This document shows, in pieces, positions 12,611 to 46,720 of a stretch of DNA of 62,209 nt (position 1 is its first letter; each line of letters starts with the position of its first letter). Where the stretch lies: assembly GCF_017302275.1 (NCBI RefSeq), contig NZ_JAFLDR010000024.1, positions 1 through 62,209 of the forward strand, given 5' to 3'. Below the pieces are notes generated by a model. It was given only the letters and a program-made list of their open reading frames with translations, had not been told where the DNA came from and searched no databases. Source of the stretch: Sulfuritalea sp. GTDB lineage: Bacteria; Pseudomonadota; Gammaproteobacteria; Burkholderiales; Rhodocyclaceae. The translations under genes were made by a program, and so were the position numbers.

Positions 12611-12643
12611 GTTCCGGTTCCTGCCCCTCGGCAGGGCCGGAAC
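12611..12643 (+). terminator. Two-part hairpin after the second phaB
   Basis: GTTCCGG (12611-12617) pairs with CCGGAAC (12637-12643) and CCTGCC (12620-12625) with GGCAGG (12630-12635), giving 13 pairs with a small internal bulge and a CCTC loop. It lacks a T run. It separates the biosynthetic genes from phaR and may dampen read-through. Confidence 0.5.
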
Positions 12644-12697
12644 GGGTCCGCAGTGCCTTGGTAGTAAAATGGGTTTACTGAGGGAGGGGAGTTAAAG

Positions 12698-27683: not shown

Positions 27684-27799
27684 TTCGGCAAATTATCCGC
27701 CGCCGCGGCGCGGCCTCGTTAGAGTACCCTGCCTAATCCGGCAAAGCCGTGACGCATAAACTGAACCGCTACGCTGTCCAATGCAGGAGGAGCCCCGCA

Positions 27800-29245
27800 A
27801 TGAACGCCATGGAACCCGCCAATCCGGGCGCGAATGCGCCGGTGGCCGACCCGCCCGCCTTCAAGAGTACCTTCGCCGCGATGCATGCCGCTACCCGGCG
27901 CAATCCGTCGGCCGACCGCGATCGTCGCCTGACGCGGCTCAACGCGCTGTTGGCGCTGGTGCATGACAACGGGGAGCGCTTCGTCGAGGCGATCGCGGCC
28001 GATTTCGGCCACCGTTCCGCGCATGAAACGCGCCTGTTGGAAGTCTTTCCCAGCCTTGAAGCCCTGCGCCACACGCGCTCGCATTTCGGCGCCTGGATGA
28101 AGCCGCAGAAGAAGCCCGCCTCGATCTGGTTCCGCCCGGGCCGCGCGCGCATCATCAGCCAGCCGCTGGGCGTGGTCGGCATCATCGTGCCCTGGAACTA
28201 TCCGCTGTTCCTCGCCATTTCGCCCATGGCGGCGGCGCTGGCGGCCGGCAACCGTGCGATGGTCAAGATGTCCGAGTTCACGCCGCACACCGGCGAACTT
28301 CTGGCCGAACTGGTGGCGAAGCACTTCGCCGCCGAGGATGTCGCCGTGGTGCTGGGCGATGCCGCGGTGGGCGCCGATTTCGCGCGCCTGCCCTTCGACC
28401 ACCTGCTGTTCACCGGCTCGACCAAGGTCGGCCACGACATCATGCGCATGGCGGCGGATAACCTGACGCCGGTTACCCTGGAACTCGGCGGCAAGTCGCC
28501 GGCCATTGTCGGCGCCGACTACCCGTTGGCCAAGGCGGCCGAGCGCATCATGGTCGGCAAGCTGCTCAATGCCGGCCAGACCTGCATCGCGCCCGACTAC
28601 GTGCTGGTGCCCGCCGGCCGCGAGCAGGCCTTCATCGAAGCGGCGCGCGCCGCCGTGGCGAAGTGCTGGCCGGACATGGCGAACTCGCCCGACTACACCG
28701 CGATCGTCAATGAGCGCCACTACCAGCGTTTGCAGGGCTATGTCGCGGACGCGCAGCAACGCGGCGCGACCGTCGAACCGCTGTCGACGGCGCAGGCCGA
28801 TGCTGCGCGCCGCCGCCTGCCACCGCTGGCCTTGCTCCAGGTGGATGACGGCATGCGCGTGATGCAGGACGAGATCTTCGGGCCGCTACTGCCGGTACTG
28901 CCCTACCATGACCTCGATGCTGCGATATTCCACGTGAACCAGCATCCGCGCCCGCTGGCCCTGTATTACTTCGGCAACGACAGCGAACAGCGTGACCGGG
29001 TGCTGAGCGGGACCGTGGCCGGTGGCGTTACCATCAACGACACCATCCTTCACATCGCGCAGGAGGAGTTGCCCTTCGGTGGCGTGGGTCCCAGCGGCAT
29101 GGGCCACTACCATGGCAGCGAAGGCTTCAAGACCTTCAGCAAGCAGAAGTCCGTGTTCTACCAGTCGGGGCTCAACGGCATGTCGCTGTTCAATCCGCCC
29201 TATGGCGCGCTGTTCGAGCGCCTGACGAAGTTTTTGATTCGCTGA
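27800..29245 (+). CDS. Coniferyl/long-chain aldehyde dehydrogenase (CalB-like)
   Basis: 481 residues of the ALDH superfamily, nearest in pattern to coniferyl aldehyde dehydrogenase and fatty aldehyde dehydrogenases. Seen: VGIIVPWNYPLFLAISP, the NAD loop FTGSTKVG, the catalytic Glu in LELGGKSP, the nucleophile Cys in NAGQTCIAPDY, and a hydrophobic C-terminus with FERLTKFLIR like membrane-tethered fatty aldehyde dehydrogenases. It would oxidise aldehydes to acids with NAD. AGGAGG 9 bases before the ATG at 27800 fixes the start. It opens the lipid/alcohol gene run and fits recycling of fatty aldehydes. Confidence 0.9.
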   Translation: MNAMEPANPGANAPVADPPAFKSTFAAMHAATRRNPSADRDRRLTRLNALLALVHDNGERFVEAIAADFGHRSAHETRLLEVFPSLEALRHTRSHFGAWMKPQKKPASIWFRPGRARIISQPLGVVGIIVPWNYPLFLAISPMAAALAAGNRAMVKMSEFTPHTGELLAELVAKHFAAEDVAVVLGDAAVGADFARLPFDHLLFTGSTKVGHDIMRMAADNLTPVTLELGGKSPAIVGADYPLAKAAERIMVGKLLNAGQTCIAPDYVLVPAGREQAFIEAARAAVAKCWPDMANSPDYTAIVNERHYQRLQGYVADAQQRGATVEPLSTAQADAARRRLPPLALLQVDDGMRVMQDEIFGPLLPVLPYHDLDAAIFHVNQHPRPLALYYFGNDSEQRDRVLSGTVAGGVTINDTILHIAQEELPFGGVGPSGMGHYHGSEGFKTFSKQKSVFYQSGLNGMSLFNPPYGALFERLTKFLIR

Positions 29246-29254: not shown

Positions 29255-30181
29255 ATGGCGGCACGGCAATTCCGCTGGCTCTTGTACGGCGAACTCTTCA
29301 TCTACGGCGTGCTCGGCTATTGGCTGACGTCGCGCGCAGGCTGGACGCTGGCGCAGGCGGCCGGCCTCGCCCTGGCGGGTTTCCTCGCGGTACGCCTGCT
29401 CATCGTCGGCCTGACCTTTGTCCTGATGCTGCAAGGAAGCGGCGAGGTGCCGCCGGAACTGCGCATCGGCATCGTCGGGGGCTTGCGCATGGTGCTCGAG
29501 GAATACGCGGCAATGATCCTGCTGTTTGCCGTGATACAACCCTTCGAGGCGTTCTGGCTGGGTCCGGATCGCCTGCCGAAACCGGCACCCGGGCGCCTGC
29601 CGGTATTGCTGATCCACGGCTACCAGTGCAATCGGGGTTTCTGGTTCTGGCTGCGGCCGCGGCTCGAAGGCGCCGGCTGGACCGTGGCGACGCACAGCCT
29701 GGAGCCGGTGTTCTCGGACATCGATGCCTATGCGGACGGAATCGCCCGGCGCGTGGACGACGTGCTGGCCATCACGGGGGCGAGCCAGTTAATCCTGGTC
29801 GGCCACAGCATGGGCGGCCTGGCGTCGCGCGCCTACCTGCGACGCCATGGCGCGGGGAAAGTGGCGCGCTTGATCACCCTCGGCTCGCCGCATCAGGGTA
29901 CCGAGCTGGCGCGCCTGGGTCTGGGGCCCAATGCCCGCCAGATGCGCGTGGGCAGCCCGTGGCTGCGCGGCTTGGCGGCACCGCTGCCGGCGGCGTCCGT
30001 GTCCATCTACAGCTGCCACGACAACTACGTGTTTCCGCAGCAAACTTGTTCGACGCTGCCAGGGGCGACCAACATCGCCATCGGCGGCGTTAGCCACCTG
30101 GGCATGGCGTTCTCGGCAAGCTTGCGCCGCATGCTGTTGCAGTCGCTGGAGGGCCCCGCTCCCCGGGCCGGGCAAAACTAG
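29255..30181 (+). CDS. Membrane-anchored alpha/beta-hydrolase (lipase-like)
   Basis: 308 residues. Three hydrophobic segments at the N-terminus (about 8-25, 28-55, 80-98) precede an alpha/beta-hydrolase domain with VLLIHGYQCN (oxyanion side), VGHSMGG (nucleophile Ser) and a later GVSHLGMAF where the His may be catalytic. A short triacylglycerol lipase or esterase of the EstA/LipA-like type is expected, facing the inner membrane. It is 9 bases downstream of the aldehyde dehydrogenase gene. Substrate unknown; the context suggests long-chain esters. Confidence 0.85.
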   Translation: MAARQFRWLLYGELFIYGVLGYWLTSRAGWTLAQAAGLALAGFLAVRLLIVGLTFVLMLQGSGEVPPELRIGIVGGLRMVLEEYAAMILLFAVIQPFEAFWLGPDRLPKPAPGRLPVLLIHGYQCNRGFWFWLRPRLEGAGWTVATHSLEPVFSDIDAYADGIARRVDDVLAITGASQLILVGHSMGGLASRAYLRRHGAGKVARLITLGSPHQGTELARLGLGPNARQMRVGSPWLRGLAAPLPAASVSIYSCHDNYVFPQQTCSTLPGATNIAIGGVSHLGMAFSASLRRMLLQSLEGPAPRAGQN

Positions 30182-30224
30182 CGCGCCGGGCTGCTGCTTG
30201 ATTACTTGGAGGATCGGAAAACGC

Positions 30225-31823
30225 ATGAAGGAATTCGATTACATCGTAGTAGGCGGCGGTGCCGGCGGTTGCGCCGTGGCGGGACGACTTTCGGAGGACC
30301 CCGCAGTCAGCGTCTGCCTTCTGGAAGCAGGCAAAGGCGATGACCAACTGCTGATCAAGGTGCCCTTCTGCACGGCGCTGATGCTGCCGACACCGATCAA
30401 CAACTGGGCCTTCGAAACCGTGCCGCAACCGGGCCTCAACGGCCGCCGCGGCTACATGCCGCGTGGCAAGGCCATGGGCGGCTCGACCTCGATCAATGCC
30501 ATGGTCTATACGCGCGGCCATCCCTGGGATTACGACCACTGGGGGGCGCTGGGCAATGACGGCTGGTCATGGCGCGAGGTCCTGCCGTATTTCAGGAAAT
30601 CGGAACACAACGAAAAATTCGACGGCGAGTACCACGGGCAGGGCGGGCCCCTGAACGTTGCCGACCTGCGCTCGATGAACCCCTTCCAGCGGATCTATCT
30701 CGAGGCCGCGCGCCAGACCGGATTCAAGCTGGTCGATGACTTCAACGGCGCCGACCAGGAAGGGATAGGGATCTATCAGGTGATGCAGAAGAACGGCGAA
30801 CGCTGGAATGCGGCGCGCGCCTATCTGACCCCGCATCGGGCCAGCCGCCCCAACTTGACGGTGCTCACCGGGACGAGGGCCCGGCGCGTGCTTTTCGCCG
30901 GCAGGCGGGCCAGCGGGATCGAGTTCGAGCAGGGCGGCGAGCTGCGGGCCATCCATGCAAAACGTGAAGTGATCCTGGCGGCCGGCGCGATCCAGTCGCC
31001 CCAGTTGTTGATGCTTTCGGGCGTCGGCGCCGGCGCCGAACTGCGGCAATTCGGCATTCCGGTGGTCCGCGACCTGCCCGGGGTCGGCAAGAATCTCCAG
31101 GACCATCCCGACTATGTCTTCAACTACCGCGCCAAGTCGCTGGACCTGCTCGGCATTTCCCTGGGCGGTGGCCTGCAGATGATGAAGGAGATCGGCCGCT
31201 ATCGGCGCGAACGCACCGGCATGATGACTTCGAATGGCGCCGAAGGCGGCGGCTTCCTGCGCCGCTTCCCGGATTCGCCTGCGCCGGAGTACCAACTGCA
31301 TTTCGTGGTCGGCATGATCGACAGCCATGCGCGCAAGCTGCATCTGGGACACGGCTACTCCTGCCACATCTGCCTGCTGCGGCCGAAGAGCGTCGGCACG
31401 CTCGGCCTCGACAGCGCCGACCCGCTGGCGGCGCCACGCATCGATCCGAACTTCCTCGGCCATGCCGACGACCTCGAAGCCATGGTCGATGGCTTCAAGC
31501 TGACGCGGAAACTGATGGATGCGCCGATCCTGGCGGGTATCCGTACCGGCGAGGTCTACACCGAAGGGATACATTCCGACGACGCGATCCGCGAGGAACT
31601 TCGCAATCGCTCCGACACCATCTATCACCCGGTCGGTACCTGCAAGATGGGCAGCGATGCGATGGCGGTGGTTGATTCGCGCCTGCGGGTGCATGGACTC
31701 GAGGGCCTGCGCGTGGTGGATGCCTCGATCATGCCGACCCTGATCGGCGGCAATACGACGGCGCCAACCCTGATGATCGCGGAGAAAGCCGCCGACATGA
31801 TTCGCGGCGATGCCGCAGTCTGA
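30225..31823 (+). CDS. GMC-family FAD-dependent alcohol oxidoreductase (AlkJ/choline dehydrogenase-like)
   Basis: 532 residues. The FAD-binding GGGAGGCAVAGRLSED begins at residue 10; the GMC signatures GKAMGGSTSINAMVYTRG and GAIQSPQLLMLSGVG follow; the catalytic His lies in YHPVGTCKMG and the C-terminal VDASIMPTLIGGNTTAPTLMIAEKAADMI closes it. AlkJ-type members oxidise aliphatic alcohols to aldehydes with electrons going to the respiratory chain. GGAGGA precedes the ATG. Its place between a hydrolase and an iron alcohol dehydrogenase fits long-chain alcohol metabolism. Confidence 0.93.
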   Translation: MKEFDYIVVGGGAGGCAVAGRLSEDPAVSVCLLEAGKGDDQLLIKVPFCTALMLPTPINNWAFETVPQPGLNGRRGYMPRGKAMGGSTSINAMVYTRGHPWDYDHWGALGNDGWSWREVLPYFRKSEHNEKFDGEYHGQGGPLNVADLRSMNPFQRIYLEAARQTGFKLVDDFNGADQEGIGIYQVMQKNGERWNAARAYLTPHRASRPNLTVLTGTRARRVLFAGRRASGIEFEQGGELRAIHAKREVILAAGAIQSPQLLMLSGVGAGAELRQFGIPVVRDLPGVGKNLQDHPDYVFNYRAKSLDLLGISLGGGLQMMKEIGRYRRERTGMMTSNGAEGGGFLRRFPDSPAPEYQLHFVVGMIDSHARKLHLGHGYSCHICLLRPKSVGTLGLDSADPLAAPRIDPNFLGHADDLEAMVDGFKLTRKLMDAPILAGIRTGEVYTEGIHSDDAIREELRNRSDTIYHPVGTCKMGSDAMAVVDSRLRVHGLEGLRVVDASIMPTLIGGNTTAPTLMIAEKAADMIRGDAAV

Positions 31824-31917: not shown

Positions 31918-33243
31918 TTGATTTCGGATTTCATCAGCGATTCGCTTCGCACCACGGCACTGGGTGCCGCCATGAAGGGCGCCGGCCTGGCCGTGCGCTT
32001 CCTGCCCATACCGCAGCCGACCATCCTGGTCGGGCCGGGAGCCAGCGGCCGCCTGGGGCAGACCATCGCCGGCTTCGGCCACAAGAAGATCCTCATCGTC
32101 ACCGACAGCATCATCTCCAAGCTGGGCCTGCTCGACGAGTTGACCTCGGCCCTGACGGCGGGGGGCGCCGAGTTCGTGGTATTCGATGCGATCACGCCCG
32201 ACGCGCCGATTCCGCTGATCGAAGAAGGTATCGACTTCTACACCGCGCACGACTGCGATGCCATCGTCGCCTTCGGCGGCGGCTCCTCGATGGACGCCTC
32301 AAAGGCGATTGCCGCCGCGGTCTCCAATCCCGGCAAGTCGCTGCGGGATCTGGCGGGTTATTTCAAGGGCCTGAGCACGCCGGTCAAGATCTATGCCGTG
32401 CCCACCACCGCCGGCACCGGTTCGGAAGTCACCGTGGCTGCCGTAATTTCCGATCCGGAACGGCAGGCCAAGCTGGTGATCGTCGATACCCGCCTGGTGC
32501 CGAAGATGGCGGCGCTCGATCCCTGCCTGATGACCGGGCTGCCGCCGCATATCACCGCGGCGACCGGCATCGATGCCCTGACGCATGCTATCGAGTCCTT
32601 CATCGGCAAGTGGGCCAACCCCTACACGGATGACATGGCCCTGTCGGCGGTCGGCCTCATTTTCGACAACCTGCGCGTGGCCTACAGCGACGGCAAGAAC
32701 CTCGCCGCGCGGGAGAAGATGGCCCTGGCCGCCACCTATGCCGGACTGGCCTTCACGCGGGCCAACGTCGGCTACGTGCATGCCATCGCCCACCAGTTCG
32801 GCGGCCGTTACCACACGCCGCATGGCCTGGCCAACGCCATCATGCTGCCGCTGGTGCTCAGGTATTCGCTGCCGGCCGTTACCGACCGACTGGCCCTGCT
32901 CGCGGTGCGCGCCAAACTCGGCAAGGAAAGCGAAGGCGAAGACGCCCTGGCGCAGAAGTTCCTCGATGCCGTGGTGCAACTCAATCGCGACCTTGCCATA
33001 CCGACCTTCCTCGCCGCGTTGAAGAAGGCGGACATTCCGCAACTGGCGGAAGCCGCCTGCCGCGAGGCGCATACCGGTTACCCGGTGCCGCGTTACATGA
33101 CGCAGGCGCAGTGCGAGGATCTGATCCGCCAGGTGCTGCCGCCCCAGACTGAACTCGAGGTGGCGCCAAGGAAAGCGGCAACGGCAAGGAAGCCTGCCGT
33201 GGCGACAAGGAAACCGGCTCCGCGCGCAAAGAAGCCGGCCTGA
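31918..33243 (+). CDS. Iron-containing alcohol dehydrogenase with a basic C-terminal tail
   Basis: 441 residues with a TTG start at 31918 behind GGAGGAGAG. The family I core is complete: FGGGSSMDASKAIA, PTTAGTGSEVT, and metal ligands in ATGIDALTHAIESF, YVHAIAHQFGGRYHTPHGLANA. It interconverts alcohols and aldehydes with NAD(P). The core ends near residue 410; the last 25 residues are a Lys/Arg/Ala/Pro-rich tail (RKPAVATRKPAPRAKKPA) not usual for this family but very like those on the neighbouring reductase and phasin. The tail may bind DNA or a granule surface; that is inference. Confidence 0.92.
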   Translation: MISDFISDSLRTTALGAAMKGAGLAVRFLPIPQPTILVGPGASGRLGQTIAGFGHKKILIVTDSIISKLGLLDELTSALTAGGAEFVVFDAITPDAPIPLIEEGIDFYTAHDCDAIVAFGGGSSMDASKAIAAAVSNPGKSLRDLAGYFKGLSTPVKIYAVPTTAGTGSEVTVAAVISDPERQAKLVIVDTRLVPKMAALDPCLMTGLPPHITAATGIDALTHAIESFIGKWANPYTDDMALSAVGLIFDNLRVAYSDGKNLAAREKMALAATYAGLAFTRANVGYVHAIAHQFGGRYHTPHGLANAIMLPLVLRYSLPAVTDRLALLAVRAKLGKESEGEDALAQKFLDAVVQLNRDLAIPTFLAALKKADIPQLAEAACREAHTGYPVPRYMTQAQCEDLIRQVLPPQTELEVAPRKAATARKPAVATRKPAPRAKKPA

Positions 33244-33302
33244 TGCCCCGGATCGCCATGCCTTGATGATGGCGGCCAATCCAACAGACGAGGAATGAAG
33301 TG

Positions 33303-35600
33303 ATGAAAAAAGTCGTTACCGTTACCCTGGGTTCTTCCAAGAAGGATTTCGAGTTCAAGACGAAGTTTCTAGGCCAGGAATTCCAGGTGCGGCGCTTCGG
33401 CGCCGACAAGGACAGCAGCAAGGCCTGGGAGTTGATGCGGCGCCAGCAGGCGTATGCGGATGCCATTGCCCTGAGCGACATGCCCGACCACTACCACGTC
33501 GGCCTGCGCACGGTGATCAACAAGAAATCGCAGCACCTGATGCAGGTCGTCACGCGCGTGCCGGTGACGACCGGCGCCAGCCTGCGCCGGCTGCTCCAGG
33601 TGCGTGCCGTCCGTTACGTGCAGAAGGAACTGGGTCACTACTTCAACAACAACCTGGTGCTATTCCTCTCCGGCATGCGCAACTACGACATGGCGGTCGC
33701 GCTGTCCGATTACACCAAGAATTTGAGTTTCGCCGATCCGGTATTCCATGCGGCATCCCCGGTGCTGCTGGGTTCGCTGGACCAGCTCGAGCTCTTCGCC
33801 AAGGGCAAGGAACTCCTGCCCGACGGCGTCCCCGGGGAGTTCCTGAAATCCGTCCTCGGCACCCTGAAGAACAAGATCGTGGCCAATGCCGTGGCCAAGT
33901 CGCATGTCATCGTCGGCACCTTCCGCGAGATCCAGGCGGTGGCTTCCGGCGGCAACCTGGAAGGCAAGACCCTGATCACTTCGGCTGTCGATGACGAGGC
34001 TCTCGCCTTCTTCGCCAAACAGAAAGTCAATCTGGCGGTGGACGTCACGCCCAAGCTCTTCGACCAGGTGGTGGGCATCAGCACCATCACTGCCATGATC
34101 CTCGCCGCGACCGGCAAGGCGGAGTCAGAGCTCACCGACCACGATTTCGAGGAGATCCTCCACGAGCTCGACATCAAGCCCCGCCTGCTGCATCCCACCG
34201 GGCATTTCCGCAACATCCGCCGCTTCGCCTTCGTCGTCCATCCGCTGAGCCAGGAGTACATCAAGAAGGGCTTCCCGCTGCCCAAGGGCACGCCCAAGTT
34301 CATCATGGACAAGGTGGAAACGCTCGCCGCCTACATGCCGCCGATGGTGTATTGCAAGATGAGCAATATCGTCTCTCCCACCGGCGCCGAGGCCGAGGGC
34401 TGGCTGATCTCGGTGGGCGGCACGCCCAAGGAGATGCTCTCGCACAGCCCCGAGTTCACCTATCGGCGCCTGCTCCACGCGGCGAAGATCGCCGAGGGGC
34501 TGGGCGCCCAGATCATGGGCCTCGGCGCCTTCACCAAGGTGGTCGGCGATGCCGGCATCACCGTGGCGCGACGCGCGAGCATACCCATCACCACCGGCAA
34601 CAGCTACTCCGCATCCGGCGCGCTGTGGGCGGCGGCCGACGCCATGCGCCGCATGGGGCTGATCAAGCCGGGCAAGGATTCGAAGCGGGTGCCCGCCAAG
34701 ACCATGGTGATCGGCGCCACGGGCTCCATCGGCTCGGTCAGCGCCCGCCTGCTGGCCATGGCATTCGACGAAGTGGTGATCGCCGGACGCGACATCAAGA
34801 AGCTCAACGAGCTGCGCGATTCGATCCTGCAGGACACGCCAGATGCAAAGGTCATCTCGTCGACCGATTACGACAGCCTGCTGGGCGACATGGACATGAT
34901 CGTCACCTCGACCTCGGGGGCCGGCAAGAAGATCCTCGACATCACCAAGGTCAAGCCGGGCTGCGTGATCACCGACGTCGCGCGCCCGCTCGACCTGCCT
35001 CCCTCGGAAGTAGCCAAGCGTCCGGACGTGCTGGTGATCGAGTCGGGCGAGATCGAACTGCCGACGCCGGTCAAGGGCATGAAGTCGATCGGCCTGCCGA
35101 AGAACGTGATTTACGCCTGCCTGGCGGAAACCATCGTGCTGGCATTGGAGGGTCGCTTCGAGGTGTTCACCATCGGCCGTGACACCGAGTGGGAAAAGGT
35201 CAAGGAAATCTACAAGCTCGGCATCAAGCACGGCATGAAGCTGGCGGCGATATCGGGCGTCAAGGGCGTGTACAGCGACGACGACATTGCCAAGGTCGTG
35301 GCCCTTGCAAAGAAAGCGCGATCGACCTGGAAGGGGTCCGGTGGTACGGCGTCTGCAACACCGGTGGCAAAAAAGGCGGTGGCAAGGAAAGCCGTGGCGA
35401 AACCTGCGGCAGCGAAGAAGACCGTGCCGGCGACGTCCGTGGCACGAAAGGTCGTTGGGAAAAAGGCCGCGCCAACGAAGGCAGCGGTGAAAAAATCTCC
35501 AGCCAAGGGAGCGGCCGCGCCGAAGAAAGCCGCGTCAAGCCCGGCGCCGACCAAAAATTCCGCGCCGAAGCCGGCCGCGAAGAGGATGGCAAGTTCATAG
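33303..35600 (+). CDS. Tripartite protein: unknown N-terminal domain, acyl-ACP reductase (AAR)-like domain, H1-like basic tail
   Basis: 765 residues. Residues about 308-665 align by eye with cyanobacterial long-chain acyl-[ACP] reductase: FAFVVHPLSQEY, LGAQIMGLGAFTKV, the nucleotide-side TTGNSYSASG (about 430), Rossmann GATGSIGSVSARLL (from about 471) and YACLAETIVLALEGRFE, in which Cys606 matches the thioester-forming Cys of AAR. Such enzymes reduce acyl-ACP or acyl-CoA to aldehyde. Residues 1-300 are a soluble domain I cannot name. Residues about 668-765 are a Lys/Ala/Pro tail with many AKKA and VAKK repeats, as in PhaF or histone H1. AGGA precedes ATG 33303. It follows the alcohol dehydrogenase closely, a logical partner for making fatty alcohol. 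Confidence 0.75.
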   Translation: MKKVVTVTLGSSKKDFEFKTKFLGQEFQVRRFGADKDSSKAWELMRRQQAYADAIALSDMPDHYHVGLRTVINKKSQHLMQVVTRVPVTTGASLRRLLQVRAVRYVQKELGHYFNNNLVLFLSGMRNYDMAVALSDYTKNLSFADPVFHAASPVLLGSLDQLELFAKGKELLPDGVPGEFLKSVLGTLKNKIVANAVAKSHVIVGTFREIQAVASGGNLEGKTLITSAVDDEALAFFAKQKVNLAVDVTPKLFDQVVGISTITAMILAATGKAESELTDHDFEEILHELDIKPRLLHPTGHFRNIRRFAFVVHPLSQEYIKKGFPLPKGTPKFIMDKVETLAAYMPPMVYCKMSNIVSPTGAEAEGWLISVGGTPKEMLSHSPEFTYRRLLHAAKIAEGLGAQIMGLGAFTKVVGDAGITVARRASIPITTGNSYSASGALWAAADAMRRMGLIKPGKDSKRVPAKTMVIGATGSIGSVSARLLAMAFDEVVIAGRDIKKLNELRDSILQDTPDAKVISSTDYDSLLGDMDMIVTSTSGAGKKILDITKVKPGCVITDVARPLDLPPSEVAKRPDVLVIESGEIELPTPVKGMKSIGLPKNVIYACLAETIVLALEGRFEVFTIGRDTEWEKVKEIYKLGIKHGMKLAAISGVKGVYSDDDIAKVVALAKKARSTWKGSGGTASATPVAKKAVARKAVAKPAAAKKTVPATSVARKVVGKKAAPTKAAVKKSPAKGAAAPKKAASSPAPTKNSAPKPAAKRMASS

Positions 35601-35606
35601 ATTTCA

Positions 35607-35644
35607 CCCCGCGCCTCGCTGCCGCAACGGGGTATGGCGCGGGG
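35607..35644 (+). terminator. Hairpin after the AAR-like gene
   Basis: CCCCGCGCC (35607-35615) pairs perfectly with GGCGCGGGG (35636-35644) over a 20-base loop, just past the stop. It lacks a T run of useful length. It separates the reductase from the phasin gene, which may have its own promoter in 35645-35769. Confidence 0.5.
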
Positions 35645-35769
35645 GTTTCCCCCAGGACATTAGTGTGATTTCTCTAATCCTGGCCGCTACACTTTCCATG
35701 TGACAGACTAGGGTTCGCCGGGGACTAGCGCGGCGAAGCAGCAGGGATACGTCAATTTTGGAGATTGTT

Positions 35770-36258
35770 ATGGTCAAGAAGCTCGTGGTTAAGAAACTCA
35801 AGTCCGTTGGCATCGACAGCCAGCTTTCCGCCACCATCCGCGATTCGGCGGAGCAGATTTGGCTGGCGGGCCTCGGCGCTTTCGCCAAGGCCCAGGAAGA
35901 AGGCACCCGGGTATATGACGCGCTGATTCGCGAAGGCGAGGCGATCCAGAAGAAGACCCGCAAGGTGACCGAGGACAAGGTGACTGAAATGGCGGCCAAG
36001 GCCACCGGCACCTGGGACAAGCTGGAGCAGGTTTTCGAGAACCGCGTGGCTCGCTCGCTCAATAGCCTCGGCGTGCCGACCAAGGCCGACGTCGAGCAAC
36101 TGGCCAAGCGCGTGGCGGAACTCAAGGCCGAAGTCGAAAAGCTGAATCGTGGTGCCGCCAAGGCCACGAAGCCGGCGAGCGCAGCCAAGCCGGTGCGTCG
36201 CGCGCCCAAGGCCGTGGCGAAAGCTGCCTCCAAGGCCGCACCCAAGGCGGCTGCCTGA
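35770..36258 (+). CDS. PhaF/PhaI-type polyhydroxyalkanoate granule-associated phasin with basic tail
   Basis: 162 residues. The first about 120 form a phasin helix bundle and leucine-zipper-like coiled coil (RDSAEQIWLAGLGAFAKAQEEGTRVYDALIREGEAIQ, then VEQLAKRVAELKAEVEKLN). The last about 36 are Lys/Ala/Pro repeats (AKPVRRAPKAVAKAASKAA), as in Pseudomonas PhaF, which links granules to the nucleoid. GGAGA 6 bases before ATG 35770 decides the start. It lies between the AAR-like reductase and a patatin, so its target granule may be PHA, neutral lipid or both. Confidence 0.9.
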   Translation: MVKKLVVKKLKSVGIDSQLSATIRDSAEQIWLAGLGAFAKAQEEGTRVYDALIREGEAIQKKTRKVTEDKVTEMAAKATGTWDKLEQVFENRVARSLNSLGVPTKADVEQLAKRVAELKAEVEKLNRGAAKATKPASAAKPVRRAPKAVAKAASKAAPKAAA

Positions 36259-36309
36259 GCGTCGATTTGCCTGACGCGAGCCTGATGGTTGCTGGCGGAG
36301 TGCTCTGAA

Positions 36310-37548
36310 ATGAGCCCGAAAGGCCGTCGGCGGAAAGCGGCCCTTGCCTTGGCCGGCGGCGGTCCGCTCGGCGCCGTCTATGAAATCGGAGTTCTGGTGG
36401 CGCTGTCCGAAGCGCTGGATGGCTTCGATTTCAACGAACTCGATGCCTATGTCGGGGTCAGTGCCGGCAGCTTCATCGCCGCCGGTCTGGCCAATGGACT
36501 CAGCCCGGCCTACCTGTACCGGATGTTCATCGACAGCGATTCGGCCGAGGTTCCCTTCGAACCGGAGATGCTGCTCAAGCCGGCCACCGGGGAATATGCG
36601 CGCCGCGCCGCGCGGTTTCCATCGTTGCTGCTCGAATCCCTGGGCGACTATTTCCGCAGCCCCTTGCAGCGGGATTTCCTGGCGTCGTTCCAGCGGTTGT
36701 CACGGGCGATTCCGACCGGGGTGTTCGACAATTCCGGCATCGACGATTTCCTGGGCCGGCTGTTTTCCCTGCCCGGCCTGAGCAACGATTTTCGCCGGGT
36801 CAGGAAGCCGCTGTACCTGGTCGCGACGGACCTCGATTCGGGAACTTCGGTCGCCTTCGGCGCCAAGGGCTTCGAGCATGTGCCGATCGCCACCGCGATC
36901 AAGGCCAGTGCGGCCTTGCCGGGCCTGTACCCGCCGGTCGAGATCGACGGTCGCTGGTATGTCGATGGCGCGCTGAAAAAGACGCTGCATGCGTCCGTCG
37001 CCCTCAAGGCCGGGGCGCGCCTGGTGTTTTGCATCAATCCGCTGGTTCCCTTCGACGCCAGGCATGCCGCGCACGAACGGCATAGCCGGGAGCGCAAGCT
37101 GGTCGACGGCGGCCTGCCCGTGGTCCTGGCGCAGACCTTCCGCGCCATCATCCATTCGCGCATGAAGACCGGCCTGGCCAAGTACGACATCGAGTACAAG
37201 GACGCCGACGTCATCCTGTTCGAGCCCGGTCGCGACGATGCCGACATGTTTTTCACCAACATCTTCAGCTATGCCGACCGCAAGCGGCTCTCGGAACAGG
37301 CCTACCGCAAGACGCGGGAGGAGCTGCTGCGTCGCCACGAGGAACTGGCGCCCAGGCTGGCCCGCCATGGGGTGAGCATCAACCTCGATGTCCTCGCCGA
37401 TCCGCACCGTTCCCTGGCGCGGCGCATGGGGCAACTGAAACGGCACCGTGCCAGGAACATGGGGCTTACCGCGCTGCGCCTTTCCGACACGCTCGACGAC
37501 CTCGCCCGGGCGGTGCGGCGCATGCAGGCCAGAACCCGTGCGGCATGA
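36310..37548 (+). CDS. Patatin-like phospholipase
   Basis: 412 residues. ALAGGGPLGAVYEIGVLVAL gives the oxyanion loop, YVGVSAGSFIAAGLANG the nucleophile (GxSxG) and WYVDGALKKT the catalytic Asp of the Ser-Asp dyad. Family members release fatty acids from membrane lipids, triglycerides or PHA granules. There is no signal peptide, so action in the cytoplasm on stored lipid or membrane is expected. The ATG at 36310 has GGAG 9 bases upstream. It is close behind the phasin gene and probably co-transcribed. Confidence 0.92.
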   Translation: MSPKGRRRKAALALAGGGPLGAVYEIGVLVALSEALDGFDFNELDAYVGVSAGSFIAAGLANGLSPAYLYRMFIDSDSAEVPFEPEMLLKPATGEYARRAARFPSLLLESLGDYFRSPLQRDFLASFQRLSRAIPTGVFDNSGIDDFLGRLFSLPGLSNDFRRVRKPLYLVATDLDSGTSVAFGAKGFEHVPIATAIKASAALPGLYPPVEIDGRWYVDGALKKTLHASVALKAGARLVFCINPLVPFDARHAAHERHSRERKLVDGGLPVVLAQTFRAIIHSRMKTGLAKYDIEYKDADVILFEPGRDDADMFFTNIFSYADRKRLSEQAYRKTREELLRRHEELAPRLARHGVSINLDVLADPHRSLARRMGQLKRHRARNMGLTALRLSDTLDDLARAVRRMQARTRAA

Positions 37549-37617
37549 AGCGGATTGGCTGACGGTCCTGCCCATGCTTTCTGCTATTCTCGGTTCATTG
37601 CTTGAGATTGGTGATTG

Positions 37618-38265
37618 ATGGAAAGAAAGCCCAAGCGCCGCACCCGCGAGCGCATCCTCGAAACCTCGCTGTCGCTGTTCAACGATTTCGGCGAGCCGAA
37701 CGTCACGACGCAGTTGATCTCCGACGAGATGGGCATCAGCCCGGGCAACCTCTACTACCATTTCCACAACAAGGACGAGATCATTGAGTCTCTGTTCGCG
37801 GATTTCGAGCGCGACATCGAGGACACCCTGGCCGCGCCGACACGGCGGGCGCCGAATGTCGAGGACATCTGGCTGTTCCTGCACCTGGTTTTCGAGTCAA
37901 TCTGGAAATTCCGTTTCCTCTACCGCGACATCAACGAACTGTTGTCGCGCAACCGTCTGCTGGAAACCCACTTCAAGCGCATCGTGGCGCGCAAGGTGAG
38001 CACCGCGTCGGCAATCTGCAAGGGGCTCGTCGCCACCGGCGACATGCGGGCGACGCCGGCGGAGATCCAGGCGCTGGCGGTCAACATGACCGTGGTGGCG
38101 ACCTACTGGCTATCCTTCGAGTTCGTCAGCGATCCGCGCAAGAAGATCGACGGCAACAGCCTGTCGCGCGGTGCCTTCCAGGTCATGGCATTGGCGGCGC
38201 CCTACCTGGTGGGCCGGTCGCGCAAGCTGTTCGAGGAAGTGTCGAAGACCTACCTGACCGACTGA
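37618..38265 (+). CDS. TetR family transcriptional regulator
   Basis: 215 residues. The N-terminal helix-turn-helix is RERILETSLSLFNDFGEPNVTTQLISDEMGISPGNLYYHFHNKDEII; the rest is the ligand-binding helical domain. Similar regulators with the GNLYYHFHNK helix often accompany PHA or fatty-acid genes in betaproteobacteria and respond to acyl-CoA. It lies 69 bases after the patatin gene and 7 bases before a TPR-like gene. The 18-bp direct repeats in front of acbP (40687-40740) are candidate targets, without proof. Confidence 0.92.
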   Translation: MERKPKRRTRERILETSLSLFNDFGEPNVTTQLISDEMGISPGNLYYHFHNKDEIIESLFADFERDIEDTLAAPTRRAPNVEDIWLFLHLVFESIWKFRFLYRDINELLSRNRLLETHFKRIVARKVSTASAICKGLVATGDMRATPAEIQALAVNMTVVATYWLSFEFVSDPRKKIDGNSLSRGAFQVMALAAPYLVGRSRKLFEEVSKTYLTD

Positions 38266-38272
38266 GAGAGCG

Positions 38273-39070
38273 ATGAGGACCAAAACCGCAAGTCCAGCCT
38301 GGAAGAAGTTTCCGCACGCCGACAAGTCCTTCGTCTACGCCGGAGCCGCGCTGAAAAACAACTGGGAACGCCTGCATCGCGGCGATCGCGAGCCTTTCCC
38401 CGCCGATTCCGCCGTGCAGGAGGCCTGGCGGCTCTATCATCAGGGCGAGTTCCAGGCCGCCTTCGAGGCAGGCCTCGCCGCCGGTCTCGATGGCTACACC
38501 GCCGCCAACAAGGCCGCGATGATTTACGCCACCTACCTGGAGGATGATGACAGGCGCAAGCTGGAACTGTTTCAGGCCATTTCCTCGCGCAGCGACGAAC
38601 TGCAGCGCGCACAGCCGAAAAATCTCAACGGGCATTACTTCCAGGCCTACGCGCTGGGCCGTTACAGCCAGGGCATCTCGGTGCTCAAGGCCCTGACCGA
38701 CGGCCTGGGTGGCCGGATCAAGTCGGCGCTGGAGGCAACACTACGGCTCGACCCGAAGCATGCCGAGGCGCATATCGCGCTGGGTGCCTACCATGCCGAG
38801 GTGGTGGACAAGATGGGCGCCATGGTCGGCAAGCTCACCTACGGCGCGAGCAGGGAAGTCGCCATCAAGCATTTCGACACGGCATTGAAACTCTTGCCGG
38901 ATTCGGCGATCGCCCGGATCGAGTATGCCAATGCGCTGGTCCTGCTGTTCGGCGACAAGCGCATGGATGACGCGGTCGGTTTCTACGAAATGGCCGCCGC
39001 GGCGACCCCGGTCGAGGCCATGGAAAAGCTCGACGTCGAGCTGGCGAAGGCGGAGCTGGAAGAAGAGTAG
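38273..39070 (+). CDS. TPR-like helical repeat protein of unknown function
   Basis: 265 residues, soluble, without signal peptide. Helix pairs of TPR type are recognisable (AVQEAWRLYHQGEFQAAFEAGLAAGLDGYTAANKAAMIYA and AIKHFDTALKLLPDSAIARIEYANALVLLFGD). The overall pattern recalls RMD1/TatT-like repeat proteins, but no function can be assigned. It follows the TetR gene by 7 bases and ends 3 bases before the convergent WS/DGAT gene. A scaffold role at granules is conceivable. Confidence 0.7.
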   Translation: MRTKTASPAWKKFPHADKSFVYAGAALKNNWERLHRGDREPFPADSAVQEAWRLYHQGEFQAAFEAGLAAGLDGYTAANKAAMIYATYLEDDDRRKLELFQAISSRSDELQRAQPKNLNGHYFQAYALGRYSQGISVLKALTDGLGGRIKSALEATLRLDPKHAEAHIALGAYHAEVVDKMGAMVGKLTYGASREVAIKHFDTALKLLPDSAIARIEYANALVLLFGDKRMDDAVGFYEMAAAATPVEAMEKLDVELAKAELEEE

Positions 39071-39073
39071 GGC

Positions 39074-40663
39074 TTATTTGCGGAAGCGCTTCGGTATCCG
39101 TCGGCCGGCCGCTGGTTCAGGAGTCGGCGCTGGCAATACGGCGGCTGTGGCTGCGGATTCCGGCGCCGCCTTGCGCCGCGCCGGTTTGCGCGTCGCGGAA
39201 ACCCCGGTGATGCGCCGGCCGAAGAGCTTTTCCTCGGCCAGGACCGGGTCGAGCGGCTGGTCCCATTCCAGCATCAGCAGCGCCAGGAGCATTTTTTCGA
39301 ACTCGGCGGCGAATAGCGGCGTGATGCTGTCCGGGTCGGAGATGAAATGGCGGTCGCTGATCAGGCTGAACTGCACCGCATCGTTGTAGCTGAGGATGGA
39401 GACGCCGACGCCGATGTCACCCGACTGCGGCACCCAGAACATGCACTGGTCGAGGCGGTTGCCGGCGAGATAGAGCGGCTCTTTCGGTCCCGGCACGTTG
39501 GTCATCACCGCGCTGGCCTTGGCCGCCAGCATGTCGAGGAAAGCCTGTTGCACCAGCTTCGGCGCCAGGCCGACGGCGGCCAGCACGCCCAGTGTCAGCG
39601 GCGGCTGGAAGGAGTGCTTCAATTCGTTCATGCGTTCGCGCACCAGGAACAGTCGCGCGAAGGGGTTGCCCTCCCAGATCGGCAGCGACAGCGTGACCAG
39701 GCCGAAGCGGTTGCCCAGCGTTCCCTCGTCCCGCGCCGAGCGCAGGTTGACCGGCACCATCGCGCGCACTTCGACGCCGGCTACGCTTTCGCCCTTCTGC
39801 AGAAAATAGGCACGGATCGCGCCGGCCACGGCTGCGAGCAGCACGTCATTGACCGAGCAGCCCAGCGCCTTGCCCAGTGCCTTGACTTCGGCGAGCGGCA
39901 TCGGCTCGGCCCAGGCCACGCGCTTCACGGTGCCGGTGTGGCCCTTGAGGCTGGTCGGCGAATCGGGCGGCATGGCCAGCAGCTTGGCGAGCTCGGCCAA
40001 CAGGCCGATGCCATACTGGCCGTAGGTCTGCAGGCGATCCGTATCCTGCGCCAGGCTCAGCGCCTTTGCCCCAAGGTCGCTGCCGGCATGGAAGGCCGTG
40101 CCGAGGGATTCGGCCAGGGTTTCGAGCAGGCCACGTGAGGGTTCGTCGACCTCGCCTTCGTCGTCGCGCAATGCCTGCGGTGCCATTTGCGGCGGCGCCT
40201 CGGGCGACGGGTCGGTGAGCGACAGCACCACGCCGACCAGGGCGATGCCGTCGGCGATGCTGTGATGGATGCGCACCACCATCGCCGAGCCGCCTTCGTA
40301 GTCCTCGATCAGGTCGAAGCGCCACAGCGGCTTGCCCGCATTCAGCGGTTGCACCGCGAGTTCGCCGGCCAGCGCCTGCAGCGCGGCCTTGCCCGAGCCC
40401 CTGGGCAGGGCGCGGCGGCGCAGGTGGGCATCGATGTCGAAATCGGGGTCGTCTTCCCAGAAGGCGCCGCCGACTTCCTGCACCGCGCACTGGCGAAAGC
40501 GCCGGTAGCGAGCCACCAGTCGTGCGGCGACGGTGTCGCGCAGGCGGTCGAAGTCCATGCGCCGCGCGAAGACCATGACGCCGAGGATCATCATCAGGTT
40601 GGTCGGCCGGTCCATGCGCAGCCAGGCCGTATCAACGGCGGACATTTTTTCGCGTCGGGGCAT
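39074..40663 (-). CDS. Wax ester synthase / diacylglycerol acyltransferase (WS/DGAT) with basic tail
   Basis: 529 residues. It has the WS/DGAT plan: SAVDTAWLRMDRPTNLM at the start, the catalytic HHSIADG (His133, His134, Asp138), PLNAGKPLWRFDLIE, and NVPGPKEPLYLAG (the ND/NVPGP region). It esterifies acyl-CoA with fatty alcohol or diacylglycerol to form storage wax esters or triacylglycerol. The core ends near residue 480; the final stretch is Arg/Lys/Ala/Pro-rich (RKPARRKAAPES, then GRRIPKRFRK). The start at 40663 has GGAAGAG 4 bases upstream. It is divergent from acbP. Confidence 0.93.
   Translation of the reverse strand: MPRREKMSAVDTAWLRMDRPTNLMMILGVMVFARRMDFDRLRDTVAARLVARYRRFRQCAVQEVGGAFWEDDPDFDIDAHLRRRALPRGSGKAALQALAGELAVQPLNAGKPLWRFDLIEDYEGGSAMVVRIHHSIADGIALVGVVLSLTDPSPEAPPQMAPQALRDDEGEVDEPSRGLLETLAESLGTAFHAGSDLGAKALSLAQDTDRLQTYGQYGIGLLAELAKLLAMPPDSPTSLKGHTGTVKRVAWAEPMPLAEVKALGKALGCSVNDVLLAAVAGAIRAYFLQKGESVAGVEVRAMVPVNLRSARDEGTLGNRFGLVTLSLPIWEGNPFARLFLVRERMNELKHSFQPPLTLGVLAAVGLAPKLVQQAFLDMLAAKASAVMTNVPGPKEPLYLAGNRLDQCMFWVPQSGDIGVGVSILSYNDAVQFSLISDRHFISDPDSITPLFAAEFEKMLLALLMLEWDQPLDPVLAEEKLFGRRITGVSATRKPARRKAAPESAATAAVLPAPTPEPAAGRRIPKRFRK
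39116..39143 (-). repeat. Copy of the scattered motif inside the WS/DGAT tail
   Basis: On the minus strand: GCCGTATTGCCAGCGCCGAC then TCCTGAA, matching the intergenic copy at 17703 at about 24 of 27 positions. Here it encodes the AAVLPAPTPEP part of the low-complexity tail. Confidence 0.45.
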
Positions 40664-40686
40664 CGTGCTCTTCCTCAAATGGGCGG

Positions 40687-40740
40687 ACATATCGCGCCGA
40701 TACCTTCCTGCAAAATGCAGCTACATATCGCCGGGATACC
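40687..40740. repeat. Pair of 18-bp direct repeats, candidate operator
   Basis: ACATATCGCGCCGATACC (40687-40704) and ACATATCGCCGGGATACC (40723-40740) are 36 bases apart start to start, matching at 15 of 18 positions. Between them lies CTGCAAAATGCAG (40709-40721), itself a perfect palindrome around AAA. They sit in the divergent region of WS/DGAT and acbP, upstream of the acbP -10, spaced by whole helical turns, so a dimeric regulator could bind them. Confidence 0.6.
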
Positions 40741-40814: not shown

Positions 40815-41072
40815 ATGAGCAATCTCAAGAAGAAGTTCGAAGCGGCAGCGGCCGATTCCAAGAAGCTTCCCGAGCGGCCCTCCAACGACGTGCTGTTGCA
40901 GCTCTATGCGCTCTACAAGCAGGGCAGCGAGGGCGACGTGGAAGGCAAGCGCCCCGGCTTTACCGACATGGTCGGCCGCGCCAAGTATGACGCATGGGCA
41001 GCGGTCAAGGGCACCGACGCCGAGGACGCGATGCAGCAATACATCGACCTGGTGAAATCGCTCAAGGATTGA
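40815..41072 (+). CDS. Acyl-CoA-binding protein
   Basis: 85 residues, the classic ACBP length and four-helix pattern: LPERPSNDVLLQLYALYKQGSEGDV, with the Tyr and Lys residues that contact CoA, then KYDAWAAVKG. ACBP buffers long-chain acyl-CoA and presents it to acyltransferases. It is common in eukaryotes and patchy in bacteria; here it lies divergent to WS/DGAT and beside a FadD ligase, so it may feed acyl-CoA to storage-lipid synthesis. GACGACG precedes the ATG with no strong ribosome site. Confidence 0.94.
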   Translation: MSNLKKKFEAAAADSKKLPERPSNDVLLQLYALYKQGSEGDVEGKRPGFTDMVGRAKYDAWAAVKGTDAEDAMQQYIDLVKSLKD

Positions 41073-41445: not shown

Positions 41446-43110
41446 TCAGGCCTTCTCGTCGCGCAACTGGCGGCGCAGAATCTTGCCGACGTTGGTCTTC
41501 GGCAGTTCGGTGCGAAACGCTATCTGGCGCGGAATCTTGTAGCCGGTCAGGTGGGCGCGGCAGTGCTCGATGATCGATGCTTCCGTCAGGTCGGGATCCT
41601 TCTTGACGACGAAGATCTTGATTGCCTCGCCGGTCTTCTCGTCCGGTACGCCGACCGCGGCGGACTCCAGCACACCGGGATGCATGGCCAGCACGTCCTC
41701 GATCTCGTTCGGATAGACGTTGAAGCCCGAGACCAGGATCATGTCCTTCTTGCGATCGACGATCTTGAAGTAGCCTCTGTCATCCATCACCGCCACGTCG
41801 CCAGTGCGCAGGAAACCGTCGGCCATGATCACCTTGGTGGTTTCCTCGGGACGGTTCCAGTAGCCCTTCATCACCTGCGGGCCGCGGATGCACAACTCGC
41901 CGGGTTCGCCCATCGGCAGATCCTTGCCGTCATCGTCGCGGATCGTCGCCTCGGTGGATGAGATCGGCAGGCCGATACAGCCGTTGTACTCGGGCATGTC
42001 GAGCGGGTTCATGGTGGCAGCCGGCGATGTCTCGGTCAGTCCGTAGGCCTCGATCAGCGTGACGCCGGTGATCTGCTTCCAGCGTTCGGCCACCGCACGC
42101 TGCACGGCCATGCCACCGCCCAGCGTCAGGCGCAGCTTGGAGAGGTCGATGCTGGCGAAATCCGGATTGTTGATCATGGCGTTGAACAGCGTATTGACCC
42201 CGGTGATGGTGGTGAAGGGATACTTGCCGATTTCCTTGACGAAGCCCGGGATGTCGCGCGGATTGGTGATAAGCAGGTTGGTGGCGCCGATCTTGAAGAA
42301 GGTCAGGCAGTTCGCCGTCAGTGCGAAGATGTGGTACAGGGGCAGTGCCGTGACGATGATCTCGCTGTCGGTCACGGCGTCCTTGATCCACGCATGCGCC
42401 TGCTGCAGGTTGGCGATGATGTTGCGGTGGGTCAGCATCGCGCCTTTCGACACCCCCGTGGTGCCGCCGGTGTATTGCAGGAAGGCGATATCTTCGTGCC
42501 CGACCTCGACCGGCTTGAGCGGAAAGCGGCCGCCTTCGATCAGCGCGTCGCGCAGTTCGATGGCATCGGCGATGTGCCATGCCGGAACCATTTTCTTGAC
42601 GTGCTTGACCACGATATTGACGATCATGCGCTTGGGGAAGTCGAGCATGTCGCCCAGTTGGGTGACGATCACGTGCTTCACCGGCGTGCGCGTGACGACG
42701 TTCTCCAGCACTTTGGCAAAGTTCTCCACGATGACGATCGCCTCGGCGCCGGAGTCTTTGAGCTGGTGCTCGAGTTCGCGCTCCGTGTACAGCGGGTTGC
42801 AGTTGACCACCGTGTAGCCGGCACGCAGCGCGCCGTAAAGGCAGATCGGGTACTGCAGCAGGTTGGGCATCATCAACGCGACGCGGGCGCCCCTGGGCAA
42901 CTTGAGCACGGATTGCAGGTAGGCGCCGAAGGCCGCCGAGAGCTTGTCCAGGTCGGCGTAGGTGATCGCCTTGTCCATGTTGATGTAGGCCTTGCGCGGC
43001 CCATACTGCCTGACGCTCCTCTCGAACAGCTCGCCAATGGAGCGGAACTCGTTGAGGTCGATTTCGGCGGGCACGCCAGCCTGGTAACTCTTGAGCCAGA
43101 TCCTTTCCAT
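41446..43110 (-). CDS. fadD: Long-chain fatty acid-CoA ligase
   Basis: 554 residues of the AMP-forming ligase family. The P-loop-like [18 protein letters not shown], the A5 motif [10 protein letters not shown], the fatty acyl signature [35 protein letters not shown] and the terminal Lys in [13 protein letters not shown] are all present. It activates long-chain acids to acyl-CoA at the inner membrane. AGGAGG before the ATG at 43110 fixes the start. With acbP and WS/DGAT nearby it can supply acyl-CoA for storage as well as for beta-oxidation. Confidence 0.95.
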
Positions 43111-43186
43111 GACAAGCCTCCTTGAAGTTTTCTCTATTCTAATCACATTGCGCAAAGCTGAAATCGCCTGTCGCGCCGCCATGGTT

Positions 43187-45985: not shown

Positions 45986-46720
45986 CTATTCCGCCGCGGT
46001 ATTCCTGCGCTGCTGTTGCGCCTCGCGCCCGCGAAATGCCATGGCCATTTCGAAGGCGGCGCGGGTGAAGGTCAGGACCTCAGCGAATTCGGCATCGTTC
46101 AGCTTGCGCGCCTCGTCGTCACCACGGTAGATGTTGGCGAATTCGCGCTCGCGCGCCGACTGGATCAGCAGCTTGCCGACGCCGAGGTTTTCCAGGCTGC
46201 GCCACAGGTCGGGATTGGACGCGCGGGTGAACTTCATGACGAAGTCGATCGGATCGTTGCGACCCAGCACGGCGGCCAGGCGCAGGATCAGTTCGAAAGG
46301 CACGGCGATGCGGCCGTTCTCCCAGGCTTCGATCAGCGACGGGTCCTTGAGATTGATCGCCGCGCCGACTTCGGTGATGGTCAGGCCGGTGGCCTTGCGC
46401 AGGCGCTTGAGTGCGGCGCCCGTGCGGATCCATACGCCGGGTTCGGACAAGCCGGGCAACATGGCCTTGAGTACGTCGGCGGCGGCTTCCATCGGCTTGC
46501 TGCGGCCCAGCGCGCGTGCCACGTCGGCCGCGGTCTTCAGCGTCGATGCCGCGCCCACCGTTGCGGCACCGGCATCGAGCACCTTGCCGGCCATGTTGCG
46601 CATCTGGTCCACCAGGCCGGATTCGTTCGGCATGGCCGCCGCAGTGCCTGATGTCGGCACCTTCCGCGCCGCGGCCTTGCGGCGTGGCGTGGTGGCGGCG
46701 GCGGTGGGTTTCCCTTTCAC
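45986..46720 (-). CDS. Helix-turn-helix (XRE-like) protein with basic N-terminal tail
   Basis: 244 residues. The first about 25 are Lys/Ala/Pro-rich (TTPRRKAAARKVP); a helical segment follows, then an XRE-type HTH at about 125-160 (ALKRLRKATGLTITEVGAAINLKDPSLIEAWENGR) and a C-terminal helical domain (about 170-244). It may regulate transcription or act as a nucleoid-associated protein. It lies 12 bases downstream of the DksA-like gene and is probably co-transcribed. The basic tail recalls those in the lipid island 5 kb away. Confidence 0.8.
   Translation of the reverse strand: MKGKPTAAATTPRRKAAARKVPTSGTAAAMPNESGLVDQMRNMAGKVLDAGAATVGAASTLKTAADVARALGRSKPMEAAADVLKAMLPGLSEPGVWIRTGAALKRLRKATGLTITEVGAAINLKDPSLIEAWENGRIAVPFELILRLAAVLGRNDPIDFVMKFTRASNPDLWRSLENLGVGKLLIQSAREREFANIYRGDDEARKLNDAEFAEVLTFTRAAFEMAMAFRGREAQQQRRNTAAE

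Follow-up and report, generated by a model that had tools for sequence, protein, structure and literature searches.

The window analysed here, a stretch of 62,209 nucleotides from Sulfuritalea sp. (contig NZ_JAFLDR010000024.1, from a genome of 4.41 Mb in 88 contigs), contains a neutral-lipid island at 27.7–44.4 kb in which four proteins end in a basic tail. The genes of the island encode, in order, an aldehyde dehydrogenase, a hydrolase, a GMC-type oxidoreductase, an Fe-type alcohol dehydrogenase (Fe-ADH, or ADH), an AAR-like long-chain acyl reductase, a PF05597 phasin, a patatin, a TetR regulator, a TPR-like protein, a wax ester synthase/diacylglycerol acyltransferase (WS/DGAT), an acyl-CoA-binding protein (ACBP), an acyl-CoA synthetase and a further hydrolase. 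The protein families suggest a likely pathway in which acyl-CoA or acyl-ACP is converted to fatty aldehyde by the reductase, to fatty alcohol by the Fe-ADH and to wax ester by the WS/DGAT. These three enzymes and the phasin carry the tails.

Each tail lies beyond a conserved fold. In the ADH (31918..33243, + strand, 441 aa), the Pfam domains (PF00465/PF25137) stop at residue 405, and the final 33 residues (409–441, encoded by 33142..33240) contain five lysines, four arginines and two acidic residues. The PhaF/PhaI-type phasin (35758..36258, + strand, 166 aa) scores 129.6 bits against PF05597 (cut-off 28.8) and 98.2 bits against TIGR01837 (cut-off 94.7), and it is the sole PF05597 match that a search of the genome turned up; its last 36 residues include seven lysines, three arginines and no acidic residue. 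The WS/DGAT (39074..40690, − strand, 538 aa) matches TIGR02946 with 390.8 bits (cut-off 309.95) as far as residue 468 and adds a basic tail past the family profile, with four lysines, nine arginines and two acidic residues in its final 50 positions. The motif HHxxxDG, which we take to be catalytic in WS/DGATs, is present as HHSIADG.

The reductase (33300..35600, + strand, 766 aa) has the longest tail of the four. It consists of an N-terminal half (residues ∼1–340), an AAR half (∼345–650) and an H1-like tail (∼680–766), the final 87 residues of which (encoded by 35337..35597) contain 18 lysines, three arginines and no acidic residue. The tail block is predicted to be disordered, with a predicted local distance difference test (pLDDT) score of 33–40 compared with a mean of 74.6 over the whole model. 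The C-terminal half has the AAR fold according to Foldseek (6jzq, E-value 8e-17, template modeling score by target 0.69–0.73) and matches AAR in the entries 6jzq/6jzu, with E about 1e-12, as well as entry 4ppm, with E 7e-28. It therefore resembles cyanobacterial AAR and the PigE reductase domain, to which the window protein adds an N-terminal half of ∼340 residues and the tail; profile comparison detected no duplication between the two halves. Cys606 is invariant and aligns with the cysteine that AAR has in the conserved acyl-reductase stretch, presumably the catalytic residue that the title of entry 6jzz names as C294. Against the AAR family TIGR04058 the protein scores 63.1 bits, far from the cut-off of 449.7, and we class it as a relative of AAR rather than as AAR itself. 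Its scores of 24.1 bits against HC2 (PF07382, cut-off 40) and 19.6 bits against the Burkholderia H1-like family NF038053 (cut-off 80) likewise indicate that the tail resembles the H1-like models without being a member of them. The original prediction, made from the window sequence alone, had placed tails of about 25, 98, 36 and 50 residues on the ADH, reductase, phasin and WS/DGAT; the measured 33, 87, 36 and 50 show that it was about right.

Conservation and composition of the tails

We compared the four proteins with their orthologues at 80 other loci, a set from which L083–L098 were omitted as apparent repeats of genomes already counted and in which near species are not independent. The nearest reductase matches, among the matches listed, came from Sulfuritalea, Rhodocyclales and other beta-proteobacterial assemblies. 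All 63 ADH orthologues with at least 60% identity are tailed (16 of Sulfuritalea type, the window included, and 47 others), with tail lengths of 14–60 residues. Tails are also present on 67 of the 76 reductases with a readable stop and on all 18 readable phasins. Retention in close orthologues, which the original prediction needed in order to stand, is thus observed. The WS/DGATs are mixed: by the labels of the tree described below, 21/31 readable proteins at the orthologue loci are tailed, as is the window's own. We used these labels in place of a looser count of 23/32, which takes in four Desulfobacterota-like ends and misses three true tails.

The reductase tails keep their composition and not their sequence. 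Among 13 reductases whose cores are 74–97% identical to that of the window protein, the tails are only 40–56% identical at every distance. Acidic residues are scarce (98/4747), and the basic residues are regularly spaced: their frequency at lag 5 is 0.51 (z score 21) and lag 2 is depleted (z −18). The five-residue period remains when repeated 8-mers are removed (z 18.8). The phasin tails have spacing peaks at four and eight residues (z 4; 18 orthologues), the ADH tails at one, four and five, and the other WS/DGATs at five with a lower z (4.6). In the pooled AAR orthologue tails (4727 residues), PAKKA occurs 34 times compared with 3.3 (standard deviation 1.9) in shuffled sequences, and KPAA occurs 36 times compared with 14.2. 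The PhaF/H1-like character originally attributed to the four tails therefore holds for their composition, which is also MLDS-like; the likeness in spacing extends to the reductase only. A second, divergent reductase paralogue at one orthologue locus (L048:5739-7853, − strand), 54% identical to the window's, is tailed as well.

Distribution of tails among genes and genomes

The tails are specific to the pathway. We applied a strict tail rule (the tail rules being our own) to the complete genes of the 80 neighbourhoods, setting aside 41 genes without a stop. Under this rule 62/77 AARs, 34/57 ADHs, 16/16 phasins and 17/28 WS/DGATs are tailed, far above the 5/736 found for genes outside the four families, which agrees with the claim that the phasin and the enzymes of wax synthesis have the tails in common. 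Of the ADHs, 23 do not pass the rule: three distant ones (L076, L077 and L081) and twenty that end in a short basic stretch. A looser rule, which counts genes without a stop as untailed, gave 0/18 for TetR, 1/17 for patatin, 0/15 for GMC, 0/14 for aldehyde dehydrogenase, 0/14 for TPR, 0/13 for hydrolase and 0/11 for acyl-CoA synthetase. It follows from these counts that the synthesis arm and the coat protein are tailed and that the likely mobilisation arm is not.

The five tailed genes outside the four families are three members of one polyhydroxyalkanoate (PHA)-granule-region cluster, a PhaR/phasin hybrid and a chemotaxis receptor; four of the five thus look like PHA-granule proteins, although only one of the three tailed cluster members was tested in Pfam. 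The cluster comprises proteins of 105–115 aa near the reductase at L042, L047, L050 and L069, of which the final 11–16 residues are mostly basic and Ala/Pro-rich; the assignment to PF09650 (PHA_gran_rgn) was tested for L050. The hybrid (L073:6536-7042, − strand, 168 aa) has a PhaR N-terminal domain, a sub-threshold phasin match and an H1-like tail. At this locus only the coat-like protein is tailed, the adjoining enzymes being untailed.

Within the window's own genome such tails are rare. Four of seven called genes at 31.9–40.7 kb of the window pass the fixed tail rule, compared with 4/1107 complete called genes in a 1.51-Mb sample of the same genome (6/1107 without the three-lysine rule) that leaves out three stretches fetched for their WS/DGATs. 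The difference (Fisher p 4e-8) is a post hoc one because the region had been picked for its tails; the orthologue comparisons are free of this flaw. Gene calling used a simple script that misses some genes, including that at 29255-30181. The possibility that tails are scattered at random through the genome, which the original prediction had named as a reason to doubt a dedicated system, is ruled out by 4/1107 vs 4/7, and tails are rare among neighbouring genes as well. The four tailed proteins of the sample are a radical-SAM protein, an HU-type DNA-binding protein with a tail of similar style, a protein without a Pfam match and a 169-aa protein. The last (L219:18687-19196, − strand) matches a phasin model below threshold, ends in a basic tail of 37 aa and is possibly a second tether. 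Of three matches to the polyhydroxybutyrate (PHB) phasin family Phasin_2, the two readable ones end only in a short basic stretch.

Tails on WS/DGATs extend beyond the island and do not depend on the reductase. Four WS/DGATs, spread over three contigs, were found in the genome; three of these proteins lie outside the island, and all four are basic-ended (the weakest with 23 aa). The initial picture of the island was thus incomplete in two respects, since the three other WS/DGATs carry tails too and the island's likely mobilisation genes have none. In a tree of 93 WS/DGATs, a single FastTree tree with long branches, tailed proteins number 49, and about 12 changes between tailed and untailed occur, of which well-supported branches force at least nine. 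One of the genome's other WS/DGATs, on contig C29, falls in a branch of 12 that are all tailed, together with nine that directly follow a reductase elsewhere; these nine are only 25–27% identical to the window's WS/DGAT. The WS/DGAT of L060 is a cut sequence. Tails were also found on 24/59 WS/DGATs read from other Burkholderiales, a set that includes one fragment and omits six partial rows, and at 7/28 loci read in a class-wide sample (among the seven, one match is below threshold and another comes from the same order), with five of them at 45–48% GC. The WS/DGATs beside the reductase at the Desulfobacterota-like loci L073, L075, L076, L077 and L081 have an end of another kind, a C..T..G..C....C..H-type stretch that looks like a small metal-binding end.

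A candidate address for neutral-lipid enzymes

We consider it plausible, if short of probable, that the tails act as an H1-like address and keep both the enzymes and the phasin bound to a single polyanion, nucleoid DNA being the likeliest. The tails would be disordered polycations whose composition and spacing, not whose sequence, are under selection, and would form a common address on the acyl reductase, the alcohol dehydrogenase, the wax ester synthase and the granule-coating PhaF-type phasin. The shared polyanion would most likely be nucleoid DNA, as for PhaF, PhaM and MLDS. This would keep the growing granule together with the three enzymes that act one after another, so that fatty aldehyde and alcohol could pass from enzyme to enzyme, and would place the granules on the nucleoid. 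A granule- or nucleoid-bound metabolon is in our judgement a good hypothesis, in which DNA binding, co-localisation and channelling are the inferred parts. The DNA address draws on the pathway-specific distribution of the tails, on the basic ends of all four WS/DGATs of the genome, on the recurrent change of tail state among WS/DGATs, on the kept composition, predicted disorder, five-residue period and PAKKA excess of the reductase tails, and on the similar tail of the HU-type DNA-binding protein.

Several proteins with comparable ends have been described. The PhaF tail contains eight AAKP-like repeats and binds DNA non-specifically (PMC5658603). The window phasin shares with PhaF and other PF05597 phasins a phasin domain followed by a Lys/Ala/Pro-rich disordered C-terminus; PhaF carries its tail on a phasin, whereas here a similar tail is also found on three catalytic enzymes. 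MLDS of Rhodococcus jostii RHA1, a neutral-lipid droplet protein, binds DNA without sequence specificity through C-terminal PAKKA motifs and ties lipid droplets to DNA, and lysine-to-glutamate substitution abolishes the DNA binding (PMC5504291). The PAKKA excess of the AAR tails is a likeness to MLDS, which is however described as the major droplet protein, in another phylum, and not as an enzyme. PhaM of Ralstonia eutropha is a betaproteobacterial granule–nucleoid tether that binds PhaC1, PHB and DNA (PMC3556143; PMC13052382); it is a separate linker of synthase and DNA, whereas here the enzymes themselves are tailed. A 2025 review lists PhaM, PhaF, PhaH and AlgP as tethers and, in its accessible text, names no tailed enzyme (PMC13052382). 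Betaproteobacterial WS/DGAT contexts that include ACBP, a phasin and a PHA-system protein have been reported (PMC10351704), as has another acyl-CoA reductase (PMC11948995), and the accessible text of neither paper mentions tails. No paper among the open-licence ones listed, as represented by titles and the starts of abstracts, describes a tail of this kind on WS/DGAT, AAR or ADH. Granule and droplet proteins with DNA-binding ends are thus already known; what these sequences suggest as new is that enzymes can carry such tails too.

Several observations weigh against a DNA address common to the whole set. Nine of the 76 reductases (L058, L061, L064, L073, L075, L076, L077, L079 and L081; 45–73% identical to the window's, six of them carrying Desulfo- or deltaproteobacterial titles) lack a tail, and the reductase can therefore do without one. 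The WS/DGATs of L048, L053 and L059 directly follow the reductase and are untailed, in an untailed branch of the tree, and those near the reductase at L042 and L069 are untailed as well. Conversely, some tailed WS/DGATs come from genomes in which the AAR survey found no close match, and the set is therefore not a strict one. In the neighbourhoods, WS/DGAT tails are rich in arginine and have only a weak period. AAKP occurs 21 times in the AAR tails compared with 14.6 in shuffles, which is no clear enrichment, and S/T-P-K/R-K occurs three times compared with 3.3; neither repeat is supported as a shared motif. The window phasin tail, at 36 aa, is shorter than the PhaF repeat stretch, given as residues 143–225 (PMC3574117). 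Finally, one comparison that in itself speaks for the pathway-specific address may have another cause. Of 32 Fe-ADH matches listed in 300 Burkholderiales genomes, taken as the same draw as the AAR survey because handles and denominators are identical, we read 30: all three reductase-linked ones are tailed (the window included), compared with 0/27 in genomes without a close AAR match, which stop at the fold end or no more than a few residues from it; these 27 are only 37–48% identical and form another subfamily, so that shared ancestry could explain the contrast. The only other Fe-ADH-domain match in the window's genome is 3-dehydroquinate synthase, which is untailed.

The main rival is an electrostatic anchor. 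The tails might hold the enzymes on an anionic phospholipid surface, either a membrane or a lipid-body monolayer, close to their greasy substrates and without DNA. We rate this as rather unlikely, although it is favoured by the lipid work of the enzymes, the tailed ones being of families with long-chain acyl substrates, and by HBHA. The Ala/Lys/Pro C-terminal domain of this mycobacterial protein is similar to the tails described here, binds anionic lipids, being needed for the binding of phosphatidylinositol (PI) and PIP2, and is also needed for lipid inclusions (PMC6176652), a parallel that counts against a DNA address. HBHA, however, is not a lipid-making enzyme and binds phosphoinositides after methylation, which this binding required. 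The reductase tails contain only 1.4% F/W/Y/L/I/M and no cysteine, and neither insertion nor acylation is therefore expected. The acyl-CoA synthetase and the hydrolases, which would be expected at lipid surfaces too, are untailed. The DNA address is favoured because the five-residue spacing and the PAKKA excess fit a DNA-binding tail, and we place it ahead of the lipid-surface anchor, which in turn precedes a condensate. These three readings are not strictly exclusive, and the likelihoods we attach to them need not sum to one.

We regard as unlikely a condensate, in which phase separation of the tails with RNA, DNA or polyphosphate would gather the enzymes into a droplet from which the granule starts. 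That several of the partners have tails of low complexity and polycationic character, one of them predicted to be disordered, is consistent with this proposal, as is AlgP of Pseudomonas aeruginosa, a KPAA-tailed protein that sits on polyphosphate granules and spaces them through its C-terminal repeats (PMC9239181). AlgP differs in that it concerns polyphosphate rather than lipid, is no enzyme of the pathway and has a longer tail (a 154-aa repeat region).

It is more doubtful still that ordinary PhaF biology accounts for the island, with the phasin tail alone of importance and the enzyme tails accessory, for example in binding an acidic granule coat. The phasin is indeed the only family tailed in all complete members, and DNA-binding tails have been described in PF05597 phasins (PMC5658603). 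Tails are nevertheless present on AAR and ADH at many loci without a match to the window phasin in the flank covered, and the longest tail is that of the AAR. Neutral drift, with Lys/Ala-rich ends created through slippage at repeats of GC-rich DNA and then tolerated, would account for the fast change in tail sequence and length, for the tandem repeats in some tails and for H1-like tails on a few unrelated proteins, but is very improbable given that 731/736 adjoining other genes are untailed, that acidic residues are so few, that the period survives repeat removal and that WS/DGAT tails are found at 45–48% GC loci too. Drift in GC content or codon use was rejected on the same 45–48% GC loci and because the use of AAA for lysine is raised in the AAR tail (9/21, compared with 9/78 in the ADH plus the AAR core), the opposite of GC pressure.

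The DNA address can be extended, tentatively and with less conviction than the address itself, to Pseudomonadota at large: the H1-like tail may be a portable neutral-lipid address, gained separately by unrelated folds (the reductase, the Fe-ADH, WS/DGATs of two deep branches, the phasin and the PHA-granule-region protein), that moors enzymes to the nucleoid as a chromosome-bound wax factory. Should catalytic enzymes be moored to DNA by their tails, the known granule–nucleoid tethers PhaF, PhaM, MLDS and AlgP, all of them coat or linker proteins, would exemplify a broader rule of addressing, and the birthplace of a lipid body could be set by its enzymes. The H1-like tail may also serve as a sequence mark for finding storage-lipid enzymes and would give a reason to keep or to cut the native tails of such enzymes in wax-ester production. 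Because removal of a tail should leave the fold intact, a direct test is possible.

Other genes of the window

The following genes of the island are untailed. Upstream of the ADH, and in the likely mobilisation arm, lies the aldehyde dehydrogenase (27749..29245, + strand, PF00171), followed by the alpha/beta hydrolase (29255..30181, + strand, Pfam), the translation of which has no tail, and the GMC-type oxidoreductase (30216..31823, start approximate, + strand), named by reading the sequence alone. Between the phasin and the WS/DGAT are the patatin-like lipase (36289..37548, + strand, Pfam), which serves as an untailed control within the island, the TetR-family regulator (37615..38265, + strand, Pfam) and the TPR-like protein (38273..39070, + strand), with Pfam matches below cut-off. 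A role for the patatin as a defence gene was rejected, as PADLOC gave partial matches only. ACBP (40815..41072, + strand, PF00887) is divergent from the WS/DGAT, and the AMP-binding acyl-CoA synthetase (41446..43182, − strand, PF00501) follows. Outside the island, a class I PHA synthase, a short-chain dehydrogenase and PhaR lie at 9.2–13.2 kb of the window, where no tail was flagged on PhaC or PhaR (9174-13249).

A helix-turn-helix (HTH) protein (45986..46720, − strand) has a basic N-terminus of ∼29 aa and had been counted with the tailed set. The basic N-terminus is indeed conserved, being kept in 20/20 same-genus loci read (its own included), but we judge the gene to be independent of the island. 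Among 31 genomes of the genus the HTH gene is present in 30 and the reductase in 17, and at two Comamonas loci an HTH relative directly before the ADH has no basic N-terminus; we therefore removed the protein from the set. Two N-terminal basic stretches were also found in the same-genome sample, one of them on a 755-aa protein that we take, from its sequence, to be the primary sigma factor.

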